The position numbers were made by a program, and so were the translations under genes. Positions 1 to 3,525 of a stretch of DNA of 18,217 bases are shown here, piece by piece. The notes beneath the pieces are model-generated. The model was not told the origin of the DNA. It saw only the letters and a list, made by a program, of their open reading frames with translations, and searched no databases. The stretch lies in the NCBI GenBank assembly GCA_014762585.1, contig JABURN010000043.1, forward strand, positions 1 through 18,217, given 5' to 3'. Position 1 is the first letter of the stretch; each line of letters starts with the position of its first letter. Source of the DNA: Methylophaga sp. GTDB lineage: Bacteria > Pseudomonadota > Gammaproteobacteria > Nitrosococcales > Methylophagaceae.

Positions 1-6
1 GTGACT

Positions 7-615
7 TTAGCCTTCTTCATAGTAGAGAGATTTAACTCTCTCTACCCCTAGGCTTCTTGCTTCGGGAGCTATGGCGTTGAGCTCTTCCTCAAGACGCTCT
101 TCTAATTTTACTGCCATTCCTCTGAGATTCTCTAAATTAGCATTATGATTCTTTAGTAAATAACCACTCTTTGCATGGGTTTTGAAGGCTTCTGAATATA
201 TCTCTTCAAACTTACTGCCCAGCTTTTCAAGCTGTTCCTGATCATCACAAGCTATCAAAGGCTTAATGTCAGAAATTAACTCGTTAATAGTTTTGATGGA
301 GTTGAAGTAGTCAGTGAAACCAAGTCTTACGCCTCTGGGTAGATACCAACAAACTTCATGGAAATTTTCTTCGAAAATGAATGTGTAAACATTCCCAGGT
401 CTGGAATCAATCTTTTGACCAAGCACTAAAAGCTGAAGTGAGAATTTGGCTTCTTTGACTACCCTCTGAAGCCATGCATTGTTATCAGAGAGCTCAATAT
501 AAAGCGCTTGAATTTTCTTCTTACGATATTTCTTCTCTTTGATATTTTCCGTTAACTGACTTAGAAGCCAACCAGCTCCAACACCAACCAAAGTTGCAAT
601 AATTGTGACATCCAT
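7..615 (-). CDS. hypothetical membrane-anchored protein, 202 aa
   Basis: I do not recognise this family. The start at 615 (MDVTIIATL) is preferred over an in-frame TTG at 633, because GGGGA lies eight bases upstream of the ATG. Residues about 3-20 form one hydrophobic segment (TIIATLVGVGAGWLLSQL), followed by a very basic stretch (KEKKYRKKK). This suggests an N-terminal membrane anchor with the rest of the protein in the cytoplasm. The remainder is mostly charged and helical-looking, ending in a Glu-rich helix (KLEERLEEEL) that could be a coiled coil. No catalytic motif or cysteine pair is visible. The gene is clearly more A+T-rich than its neighbours and uses codons such as AAA, ATT and TTA. 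It is separated from the lysA-xerC operon by the structured element at 670-1085. A transferred accessory gene is a reasonable inference; function is unknown. That it is a real gene is supported by length, RBS and protein-like composition. Confidence 0.75.
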   Translation of the reverse strand: MDVTIIATLVGVGAGWLLSQLTENIKEKKYRKKKIQALYIELSDNNAWLQRVVKEAKFSLQLLVLGQKIDSRPGNVYTFIFEENFHEVCWYLPRGVRLGFTDYFNSIKTINELISDIKPLIACDDQEQLEKLGSKFEEIYSEAFKTHAKSGYLLKNHNANLENLRGMAVKLEERLEEELNAIAPEARSLGVERVKSLYYEEG

Positions 616-639
616 GACTAAATTCCCCGGCAAATAAAA

Positions 640-669
640 ATCATTTCTGTGTAATCACTACATTATCAA
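640..669 (-). promoter_or_regulatory. possible sigma70-type promoter for the orphan gene
   Basis: Read on the minus strand, TTGATA (664-669) and AATGAT (640-645) are separated by 18 bases and lie just upstream of the GGGGA ribosome binding site of the gene ending at 7. The -35 box starts immediately outside the end of the 670-1085 element. The matches are partial (-35 five of six, -10 four of six), so this is a weak call. Confidence 0.3.
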
Positions 670-767
670 TTTCGCCTTAATGGCGAGTCAGGGATTTGCG
701 CGGCCAAATCCCTAACAACCCTAGGCCGCCCCCTTGTGCTGGCCTGCGGCTCCACTGCGTTGCTCGC

Positions 768-830
768 TTAATCTGGGAATTGGCTAAAACTCGCTGCGCT
801 CAAACACTAGCCAATTCTTATCCAGATTAA
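768..830 (+). other. stem-loop of the left unit
   Basis: TTAATCTGG (768-776) pairs perfectly with CCAGATTAA (822-830). An inner stem GAATTGGCTA (777-786) pairs with TAGCCAATTC (808-817), with a four-base bulge (TTAT, 818-821) on the right side. The 21-base loop carries AACTCGCTGCGCTCAAAC. The structure could form in RNA or in single-stranded or extruded DNA. A weaker outer pairing, GTGCTG (735-740) with CAGCAC (845-850), may extend the base. Confidence 0.75.
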
Positions 831-928
831 CCTGCGCTACTCGTCAGCACAAAAGGGGATCAAAGGGCACCTTAATGATTGTCGGGATGAACCCCTATGC
901 ACCGTTTTGCGAAGCCGAGCATCAGAGG

Positions 929-989
929 CGTGACTGGATCAGTACGAGCGCCTGTTTGAGCGTAGCGAGTTCGCGAGTGCCCAGTCACG
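929..989 (-). other. stem-loop of the right unit
   Basis: CGTGACTGG (929-937) pairs perfectly with CCAGTCACG (981-989) around a 43-base loop. Read on the minus strand, this loop contains AACTCGCTACGCTCAAAC (971-954), one base different from the left-unit loop motif. The stem occupies the same position within the unit as the 768-830 stem but has a different sequence at five of nine positions, with matching changes in both arms. Confidence 0.7.
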
Positions 990-1058
990 GCGAGAAGCGC
1001 AGGGAACCCTCAGGGCAAGCAACGGGCCGGCCTTTTTTGGTTCGTTTTTTGGCCGCGC

Positions 1059-1083
1059 AAAAAATGAACTCGCCCTTAGGCGA
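1059..1083 (-). terminator. possible intrinsic terminator of the lptM-xerC operon
   Basis: On the minus strand, directly after the xerC stop codon, TCGCC (1083-1079), a four-base loop TAAG and GGCGA (1074-1070) form a short hairpin. It is followed by GTTCA and then six T residues (1064-1059). The stem is only five pairs and the T run is offset by five bases, so strength is doubtful. The hairpin is also the outer end of the 670-1085 element. Confidence 0.35.
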
Positions 1084-1089
1084 AACTAA

Positions 1090-2001
1090 TCAGGAATCCG
1101 ATCGCTTCTTGGCGCGCGGATGCGCCGAATCATAAACCTTCGCCAGATGCTGAAAATCCACATGCGTATATATCTGCGTAGTACTGATATCCGCGTGGCC
1201 CAACAACTCCTGCACCGCGCGTAAATCCCCACTCGACTCCAGCATATGCGAAGCAAACGCGTGCCTCAGCCGGTGCGGATGCACATGATCCGAAATGCCG
1301 TGTTTCTTGCCCCAGAAACTCAGACGTTTCTGAATGGAACGCACGCCAAGGCGTCGGCCCTGCTGGGTAATAAAGACGGCCGGCTGATCAAAAAATCCGG
1401 TCTGGTCACGTTTTGCCAGCCAGTCCTGCAACGCTTTAATCGCCTGTGAACCGACAGGACAAACCCGGTCTTTCTGCCCTTTACCGGTGACATGCACCAG
1501 TTGATCGCCAAAATCAATATCACGCAAGTTGAGTTCAGCCAGTTCCGCCAGGCGCAGGCCTGAAGAATAAAACAACTCCATGATGGCGCGGTCACGCGTG
1601 GCAACAAAGGTATTGGGTTCAGTGTGATCGAGCAAAGCATTCATCTGATCGACATCGAGGGTCGAAGGCAGACGCTTCTCGGCTTTGGGCGCCTGCACGG
1701 CCTGAGCGGGATTATTGTCTGCCAGCCCCTGCCTGATCAGATACTGATAAAAAGACCGTATGGCTGAGAGCATGCGTTGAATACTGCGGCTGGAAAGCCC
1801 TTTGCGGTGCAGAAAAGCGGAGAACTGACGCAGATCTCTGGTTTTGAGAGCAGACCAGTTTTTTAAACCGTCACGTTCACAGAACTCAGTCAGTTGCTGC
1901 AGATCACGGCGATAATTTTTGACCGTATGAGCGGATAAACGCCGTTGCAGCGCCAGATAGTCCAGAAATTCATCAACGACGCTGGTCAGCGTGTCAGCCA
2001 T
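1090..2001 (-). CDS. xerC: tyrosine recombinase XerC
   Basis: Site-specific recombinase that, with XerD and FtsK, resolves chromosome dimers at dif. The 303-residue product has the usual layout: an N-terminal SAM-like core-binding domain (about 1-100) and a C-terminal catalytic domain (about 110-295). The complete catalytic set is visible: R150 (SGLRLAEL), K174 (TGKGQKDR), H243 and R246 (HPHRLRH), H269 (LLGHADISTT) and the nucleophile Y278 (QIYTHV). I chose the ATG at 2001 ([12 protein letters not shown]) over an ATG nine codons upstream, because it matches family N-termini and overlaps the DUF484 stop by 8 bases (ATGGCTGA), a normal coupled junction. It is the last gene of the lptM-lysA-dapF-DUF484-xerC operon. 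Length and motifs are normal. It could be confused with XerD, but the gene order points to XerC. Confidence 0.95.
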   Translation of the reverse strand: MADTLTSVVDEFLDYLALQRRLSAHTVKNYRRDLQQLTEFCERDGLKNWSALKTRDLRQFSAFLHRKGLSSRSIQRMLSAIRSFYQYLIRQGLADNNPAQAVQAPKAEKRLPSTLDVDQMNALLDHTEPNTFVATRDRAIMELFYSSGLRLAELAELNLRDIDFGDQLVHVTGKGQKDRVCPVGSQAIKALQDWLAKRDQTGFFDQPAVFITQQGRRLGVRSIQKRLSFWGKKHGISDHVHPHRLRHAFASHMLESSGDLRAVQELLGHADISTTQIYTHVDFQHLAKVYDSAHPRAKKRSDS

Positions 2002-2695
2002 GATTATGGGTGTGATAGCGAAGCACACGCATAAACACTTCGCCTAAAAAACTCAAATAATCGGTCGCCATATCAGCATGGAAACGATTGGGATCTTGGC
2101 TGCCAATCGCCAGCAGCCCGGCGCAGGGTTCATGACCGAGCGGCAGACAGGCGACAGACTGAATATCATCGGCCTTGTCATTGAACAGCAGAGCCTTCTG
2201 GGCTTTGGTCAGACGGCCGCAAATCGGCTTTTGCTTGCTGAGCAGATTATCGAAACTGCGCAATTTGGTATCGTCAGCGTGAAGCTGGCCGACATTGGCT
2301 TTGAGATCGGGCAGTTTGAAAGGCTTATCGCCGTAAAACAGCCGCACAGCGACATCATCGGCAGCAAATTCCTGTTGCAGTTCTTCCATCAGATTTTTAA
2401 TCAGACTGCCGAGATCAGCCGCATCCAGCAGACTCAGGCACAGAGCATGAACCCGCTGCTGCAATTCGGCGTTGCTGTGAGCATTATCAATCAAAGCATG
2501 AAGTTGCTCGTTGAGCTGTTTGTTTTTCTCTTTGAGCCTTTGCTGCTGCTTTTGCGCGAGGGAAATAGTGCCTTCAGGCGATTGATGCAGTTCCAGTGTT
2601 TCCAGCAGTTCCGGGTGTTGCAGGAAGATATCCGGATGCGATTGCAAATAGGCTTCCAGTTCAGCCAGGGTTATTTGTTTTCCAGCGTCGCCCAC
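1994..2695 (-). CDS. DUF484 family protein (GAF-like), 233 aa
   Basis: Member of the DUF484 family, found between dapF and xerC in many gammaproteobacteria. The biochemical role is not established. The N-terminus ([29 protein letters not shown]) is the recognisable family signature. A Gln/Lys-rich coiled-coil stretch (about residues 45-75) and a GAF-like alpha/beta region follow (about 85-230, including [27 protein letters not shown], quoted here only as landmark pieces CLPLGHE, GLLAIGS and DPNRFH). Start: GTG at 2695, 25 bases inside the end of dapF, so translation is likely coupled. The stop overlaps the start of xerC. No catalytic residues can be assigned. Family assignment is secure; function is not. 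Confidence 0.9.
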
Positions 2696-3525
2696 GCTAT
2701 TTCTCCATCAAATACATGTTCTGCCGGCCCGGTCATCCAGACGGCGCTGTCTTCATCGGGCCAGCTGATTTGCAGTTCACCGCCCGGTAAAGAGACGGTC
2801 ACTTCATTGGATAATAAACCACGACGGATACCGCTGACGACCGCTGCGCAGGCGCCGGTACCACAGGCAGAGGTTTCACCAGAGCCCCGCTCAAATACGC
2901 GCAGCCGAATGTGATTGGCATCCTGCAATTGCATAAAGCCAACATTGACCCGCTCCGGGAACTGCTCGTGCGCTTCCATCAACGGTCCGATTTCCAGTAC
3001 CGGCGCGGTATCGACATTATCTACCAGCATAACGGCATGGGGATTGCCCATCGACACGACGGCCACTTCTTTTTTGCCGTGTTCCGGCACAGTCAACATG
3101 TAGGTTGTCGCCTGTTCTTCAACAAGAAAAGGAACACGACCTGGTTCAAACTGCGGCTTTCCCATATCCACAGTCACAGAACCATCAGCCTGTATCGTCG
3201 GGTATATCAGGCCCGAGGCCGTGACTACCGCAATCGTGTCTTTGTCACTCAGGCCTTTTTCGCGCACAAACCGGGCAAAGCAGCGGGCACCATTGCCGCA
3301 TTGTGACACTTCACCGCCATCGGCGTTAAAAATGCGGTAGCGGAAATCAGCCTCATCAGAATCAGAGGCTTCTACCAGCAAAACCTGATCGCAGCCCACA
3401 CCAAAGTGCCGATCAGCCAGAAAACGAATCTGGCTGTCGCTCAGTGTCACTTGCTGATCAATGGCATTGATGACAATAAAGTCATTGCCAAGGCCATGCA
3501 TTTTGCTGAATTTGAGCGTGCTCAT
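2671..3525 (-). CDS. dapF: diaminopimelate epimerase
   Basis: Converts LL-diaminopimelate to meso-diaminopimelate, the peptidoglycan cross-linker and lysine precursor. It is a cofactor-independent two-cysteine racemase. The 284-residue product shows both catalytic cysteines in their motifs: C76 (SQCGNGARC) and C221 (SACGTGAC). The family start ([16 protein letters not shown]) and the substrate-binding segment MGNPHAV (about 159-165) are also present. Length matches the family. The ATG at 3525 overlaps the lysA stop by four bases (ATGA), showing translational coupling with the next enzyme of the pathway. The downstream DUF484 gene starts inside it. Nothing is missing or unusual. Confidence 0.97.

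Follow-up and report, generated by a model that had tools for sequence, protein, structure and literature searches.

Repeated hairpins in the intergenic DNA of bacteria have been described under several names. REPs, BIMEs and REPINs, which are associated with RAYT (TnpA-REP) transposases, are thought to be moved as single-stranded DNA (available parts of PMC2817692 and PMC6006769), and the element analysed here resembles them in being made of dispersed intergenic hairpins, often in inverted pairs. Bacterial MITEs, as presented in the accessible portion of PMC10969869, are short, non-coding and intergenic and have inverted ends; the element shares these features, together with terminal inverted repeats (TIRs) and one 8 bp duplication in a distant genome (G111). 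Hairpin repeats also serve as landing places, as they do here, when IS elements insert into REP sequences (available text of PMC1525189). A 2008 survey of stem-loop families that included Haemophilus influenzae (PMC2267715, in the part accessible) deals with similar repeated intergenic stem-loops; the likeness is one of description rather than of family sequences, and a Haemophilus member of the element could be among those families. At the level of the single hairpin, d(GCGAAGC) combines a GNA loop with at least two G-C pairs into an extra-stable, nuclease-resistant DNA mini-hairpin with a Tm of 78 °C (available part of PMC4686876), and the conserved loop described below contains GCGNAGC. No description of the element itself was found in open PMC papers, including by the letters of its motif and hairpins (titles and starts of abstracts).

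Layout of the inverted-pair element

The window is the whole stretch of 18,217 nucleotides of Methylophaga sp. DNA that was analysed. Between an ORF of unknown function (7–633, minus strand) and a gene that we take to be xerC by similarity and from a genus-wide search, it carries two hairpins whose outer stems enclose spacers of 45 nt in the left unit and 43 nt in the right unit. The original prediction had placed these stems, the spacers and the 18-base motif within them correctly, and its observation that five of the nine stem positions differ between the units, with all nine still paired, was confirmed; the single variable position that it saw in the motif is the N of GCGNAGC. Each hairpin lies at the centre of a unit of ~200 nt, and the two units, inverted relative to each other, form a non-coding element of ~416 bp. 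The left unit, from 670, could be aligned over nearly its whole length with the reverse complement of the right unit, up to 1085, so the feature is wider than 768–989. Three hairpins make up each unit: H0 at the end, H1 as the second, and a long one whose loop carries the motif. The features are as follows (strand given where assigned).

670–1085: whole inverted-pair element, non-coding (left unit aligned with the reverse complement of the right; ends common to copies elsewhere)
670–686: left end hairpin H0, TTTCGCC-TTAA-TGGCGA (unit alignment; like the head hairpin of the Haemophilus and Variovorax copies)
690–713: left hairpin H1, AGGGATTTG..CAAATCCCT (inverted-repeat search)
768–776: left outer stem, 5′ arm TTAATCTGG (exact positions)
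777–786: left inner stem, 5′ arm GAATTGGCTA, 10 bp and perfect (exact positions, folding)
788–805, minus strand: left apical loop; the minus strand reads GTTTGAGCGCAGCGAGTT, with GCGCAGC at 793–799 (motif scan; strand suggested by stem mismatches)
808–817: left inner stem, 3′ arm TAGCCAATTC (exact positions)
822–830: left outer stem, 3′ arm CCAGATTAA (exact positions)
909–915, plus strand: the mini-hairpin sequence GCGAAGC, exact, within the right unit (exact positions)
929–937: right outer stem, first arm CGTGACTGG (exact positions)
954–971, plus strand: right apical loop GTTTGAGCGTAGCGAGTT, with GCGTAGC at 960–966 (motif scan)
981–989: right outer stem, second arm CCAGTCACG (exact positions)
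1040–1069: right hairpin H1, GTTCGTTTTTTG..CAAAAAATGAAC (exact positions)
1070–1085: right end hairpin H0 (unit alignment, exact positions)
1090–2028, minus strand: presumed xerC, flanking gene (similarity, genus-wide search)

The 18-mer was found at 788–805 (+) and 954–971 (−) and nowhere else in the window at up to three mismatches; two such matches occurred in none of 200 shuffles, and in shuffled sequence arms of at least 9 bp would arise no farther than 25 nt from the motif with a probability of ~0.0015 per unit. Beyond the outer stem first described, the left unit has a second, inner stem of 10 bp, and its core gives folding z-scores of −4.3 and −4.4 for the two strands. The inner stem of the right unit is degraded, placing this unit among the six of 47 copies that have no 6 bp stem within 20 nt of the loop, and its 87 nt core alone folds no better than shuffles (z −1.3 and −0.5). 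Folded as a single strand of 461 nt, the region has z-scores against shuffles of −6.6 as DNA and −9.5 as RNA, and the best fold is one long palindrome of the left with the right unit, not two hairpins. The ends of the window copy (TTTCGCC..GGCGAGT) align on both sides with some differences and are TIR-like; a reading of the flanking sequence revealed no target duplication. Translation of the repeat as a Pfam family was considered and rejected, none of ten proteins having a match above the cut-off: the window ORFs 7–633 (minus strand; 208 aa) and 875–1135, and eight ORFs overlapping or near units.

Several of these features would suit a structured RNA, that is, a 3′-UTR hairpin or a small RNA acting as a two-way terminator or RNase barrier. 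They are the RNA folding score, the GC-rich hairpin followed by a T-rich stretch that ends the sense strand of each unit, and the position of the window copy, which begins (with its right end) 4 nt past the stop codon of xerC. However, no Rfam match was found in window positions 1–3000 (E up to 1) or at six representative loci (gathering scores), and clustering of 499 ORFs near motif copies gave no constant or recurrent neighbour gene; the largest group comprised 6 loci, and the second largest 5 loci, with ORFs mostly overlapping the units.

Covariation of the stems and the folding strand

Copies of the motif were scored for complementary arms, taken as a perfect stem of 6 bp or longer no more than 20 nt from the loop, after near-duplicates and copies flanked by fewer than 80 nt had been removed; as a control, the left flank of one copy was paired with the right flank of another. 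Among distinct copies, arms accompanied 41 of the 47 in relatives and the own genome (mismatched flanks, 11%) and 84 of the 105 among the GTDB matches listed (8%). The original prediction, under which the motif should not occur mostly without arms, stood in these two sets but not in viral contigs, where arms accompanied 16 of 41 distinct copies (7%). In our reading, the low viral figure is largely due to recurrent matches in unrelated sequence, and the viral set (at least 82 motif rows listed, L183–L262), diluted in this way, was not counted as support. At viral loci L187, L192, L207 and similar ones, exact motif matches recur in unrelated, gene-like sequence with no arms, a caution for searches by motif only.

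Stem covariation, first suggested by the two window units, was tested on 51 of the 74 units found, picked for diversity from Methylophaga, Variovorax and others and aligned (alignment A1; four units slightly trimmed). It proved far above both shuffled and slid controls: the covariation score was 0.702, against 0.169 in shuffled alignments (none of 500 reached the observed value) and at most 0.18 with the partner column slid. Paired cells made up 87.4% (shuffled, 56.7%) and 326 cells had changed on both sides (shuffled, 105); since the rows are related, the changes are not independent events. At several stem positions each of the four Watson-Crick pairs is represented, again among related rows. 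The outer helix is 95% paired and the inner helix 76%, partly as a result of alignment gaps, and the internal loops remain non-complementary.

The history originally read into the two window stems, namely stepwise paired change of one duplicated sequence, did not hold up, as the stems represent two unit classes, each recurring in other genomes. A relative (G013) with a XerC 98% identical to that of the window keeps the left unit with the same stems and has a wholly different right unit, along with another spacer and flank (L302 versus L303), which points to whole units being swapped or newly inserted rather than to pairwise mutation. Within one unit class, single changes matched in the opposite arm are nevertheless seen (L340 versus L334).

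The mismatches that remain in the stems are unevenly divided among types. On the strand reading ACTCGCT there were 34 A·C, 10 G·T and 57 other mismatches (p 0.0004), with 13, 1 and 14 in the relatives' copies (p 0.002) and 21, 9 and 43 in the GTDB copies listed (p 0.04), the copies in each case not being independent. An excess of A·C on the ACTCGCT strand means wobble pairs on the TGTTTGAG strand, which marks the strand reading TGTTTGAGCGNAGCGAGT as the one that probably folds. The outer helix of A1 agrees with the asymmetry (GU 11, AC 2 on the TGTTTGAG strand). The inner helix gives GU 18 and AC 12 with columns 29/70 excluded, which lie beside the internal loop and in most rows do not truly pair; including them raises AC to 30 (that pair alone contributing 18), and the inner helix counted in this way does not support the asymmetry. 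The original prediction had left open whether an RNA or single-stranded DNA is folded. Wobble asymmetry shows the folding strand and not the molecule, and it fits RNA equally, as G·U pairs would produce the strand bias observed; it is the loops that point to single-stranded DNA.

On the folded strand the loop reads TGTTTGA-GCGNAGC-GAGT. All four bases occur at N (A 60, T 31, C 30 and G 5 among the exact GTDB matches listed, which were not deduplicated and include armed and armless copies together). Both pairs of the mini-stem are formed in all 51 rows of A1, in one case by a double change from G-C to C-G (L032); the C-G form is also found in three further units of the same stem class (L033, L034, L168), and the four probably reflect one event. 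Triloop hairpins with 3 bp stems were counted against shuffles of single bases. In 49 units, 67 GNA triloops were found (shuffled, 9; sevenfold), 47 of them closed by C-G (shuffled, 3), and the opposite-strand form TNC numbered 7 (shuffled, 7). A further 65 copies, counted without the loop, had 22 GNA triloops (shuffled, 10; twofold), 12 closed by C-G (shuffled, 1.9; sixfold), and 8 TNC (shuffled, 8.9). The GNA enrichment is thus confined to the folded strand.

RNA would rather favour tetraloops than GNA triloops. The GCGNAGC loop and the enrichment of GNA on one strand speak for single-stranded DNA rather than RNA, since triloops of the GNA type on G-C stems are described as extra-stable in DNA (accessible part of PMC4686876). 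Nearest-neighbour DNA folding of the isolated 19 nt loop predicts no structure and no mini-hairpin. Weighing these points with those from the window copy, a structured RNA appears rather unlikely.

Spread, probable mobility and insertion into loops

The exact motif AACTCGCTNCGCTCAAAC is present in four copies in the own genome and occurs in 29 of the 58 genomes searched, namely 28 of the 35 that belong to its family, itself among them, and 1 of the 23 that do not; the reversed pattern, used as control, gave four matches in all. A scan of GTDB contigs found at least 117 stretches with the motif, in Bacteroidota, Bacillota, Pseudomonadota, Patescibacteria and others according to their titles. 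When both internal-loop anchors were required as well, just 5 of 185 genomes sampled from the class had a match, so the exact strict-unit architecture is patchy rather than general. By blastn, the window element had no match among plasmids and phages, nor the Haemophilus copy among phages. The DNA behind xerC was compared in the 22 genus genomes with a XerC match out of 24 searched (900 nt read, 761 nt in one); the motif, at up to two mismatches, is present in 14 and absent from 8, and the types of element vary among species.

Variants were seen in more distant bacteria. In two Clostridia genomes (L086, L146) a lone hairpin with this loop is nested in another long inverted repeat, flanked by different genes in each. 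On Paraburkholderia megaplasmids (L427–L432) the H1 end hairpin was matched at at least 37 places per 2-Mb record (seven records). The copies read there have H0/H1 ends of the same kind and a different interior, and were for that reason left out of all counts; in two strains the element-bearing stretch is 94% identical and the flanks 99%. The few related matches that were looked up lie in unannotated sequence, but these plasmid records have hardly any gene table, which makes the result uninformative.

Close pairs of motifs (<700 nt) were convergent in 17 of 22 distinct cases among the loci examined. The clearest ends are those of G111, in which at least 15 copies are listed. Four complete elements of 411–527 bp have 23 bp TIRs and lie in A/T-rich targets; their flanking octamers match at 8, 7, 6 and 4 of 8 positions, one being a perfect 8 bp duplication, which suggests ordinary DDE transposition rather than a single-strand route. 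In the G111 contigs (L325–L346, L367–L396) several elements lie beside terminator-like T-runs, and several contigs break within an element. For one Methylophaga copy (L166) the flank had no match in nine relatives, leaving no empty site for comparison.

These ends, the exchange of units in G013 and the TIR-like ends of the window copy would all be accounted for by an ordinary DDE MITE, whose palindromes are simply internal and whose arms match through copying between arms or copies and not through selection on a fold. However, the ends vary among lineages while the loop persists, the internal loops have stayed non-complementary, and copying alone does not give strand-biased mismatch types and GNA hairpins, so that this explanation is judged unlikely. 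An ISL3 transposase (PF01610) was considered as a partner in G111 and discarded as unconvincing, the single odd match having no TIRs around it; genome G000 had no ISL3 match, and 20 ISL3 loci in 15 genomes searched were without the motif. Mobilisation as a REP/REPIN-type repeat by a RAYT (Y1 HUH) transposase is improbable. The intergenic inverted hairpin pairs would agree with it, as would the Y1 genes, present in 36 of the 58 relatives examined, but the motif (up to two mismatches) lies within ~1.5 kb of none of 30 Y1 loci, a subset of those found and with only 15 from motif-bearing genomes, which weakens this negative; the own genome (85.7% complete) has no Y1 match; and GTAG near the stem base is seen in only some unit classes of A1, the GTAG/GTRG foot not being conserved. 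The Y1 and ISL3 searches thus tied no transposase to the element.

The element is itself a site of insertion. A palindromic insert of 70 nt, ATTCGYGRCATCCATG...AAATTTGTG, was located at 35 distinct sites (including L307, L313, L315, L176 and, in the own genome, L001), and its start pattern occurs in 23 of 58 genomes searched. By a script rule, 18 sites fell in the apical loop, 5 in another loop closed by 6 bp or more of stem, and the other 12 elsewhere; by eye, these 12 comprised 3 apical loops, 5 H1 loops, 2 internal loops and 2 sites outside units. The insert is therefore in apical or H1 loops at 31 of the 35 sites (23 by script, 8 by reading), and at 16 of the 19 sites from loci taken for the insert itself (30 of 66 matches covered). 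A bare stem test of the insert flanks was weak (13 of 35, against 16%), and the filled and empty pair L307/L308 showed no target duplication apart from at most 3 ambiguous nucleotides.

Proposed mode of action and comparison with known systems

The window element is best explained, with a probability of roughly 0.45, as one dispersed, non-coding, transposon-like copy of a non-autonomous mobile element that acts as folded single-stranded DNA. A copy would normally consist of two inverted units. The TGTTTGAGCG strand would become single-stranded as lagging-strand template, in an extruded cruciform or as a transposition intermediate, and would then fold into a long hairpin with variable yet complementary stems, capped by the conserved loop, itself closing into the GCGNAGC mini-hairpin. 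What is kept would be the DNA fold, not the sequence of the stems, and the gene-free element would be moved in trans. Of this picture, the analysis showed the conserved loop, the covarying stems, the strand asymmetry, the GNA enrichment and the dispersal without a constant neighbour gene; the TIR-bounded G111 copies and the 70 nt insert in the loops also speak for it. We infer that the working molecule is DNA (single-stranded DNA being likelier than RNA), that the element is still mobile and that its fold is read by an enzyme. Counting against it are the DNA folding predictions, which give the loop no structure and the whole element a single palindrome, as well as the mismatches of the inner helix, the wobble asymmetry in that it suits RNA equally, the window copy without a target duplication, the G111 duplication with its hint of DDE transposition, and the Y1 and ISL3 searches that tied no transposase to the element.

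More tentatively, the copies may belong to a cross-phylum class of element, in which a hairpin of any sequence, capped by TGTTTGA-GCGNAGC-GAGT, would be read by a widespread enzyme or host factor, the DNA fold being selected while the stems drift. By analogy, and just as speculatively, such a selected DNA fold would be comparable with a structured RNA, at the level of DNA. If true, covarying stems, a favoured strand and GNA loops would provide a signature, readable from sequence alone, of DNA acting as a folded single strand, borne by elements found in genomes of several bacterial phyla, and the loop and the strand would offer a concrete handle for seeking the protein that reads them.

Relative to the open PMC literature searched, dispersal, inverted pairing and TIRs (in one lineage) class the element with the MITE/REP kind; its loop, its strand signature and its spread over phyla were found in nothing described there. 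The unit, at ~200 nt, is far longer than the 20–40 nt of a REP (available part of PMC3733652); unlike REPs, it has a GNA-capped conserved loop instead of a GTAG foot and no flanking RAYT among the 30 Y1 loci, and the same loop recurs in several phyla. In contrast to the MITEs described in the accessible part of PMC10969869, its two hairpins are large and their stems covary, and the loop stays constant while the ends vary by lineage. Where IS elements enter REP sequences (PMC1525189, available text), the insert here is of 70 nt and lies in loops. Finally, d(GCGAAGC) is, in the available part of PMC4686876, a chemical and aptamer tool, whereas here it belongs to a natural, dispersed element.
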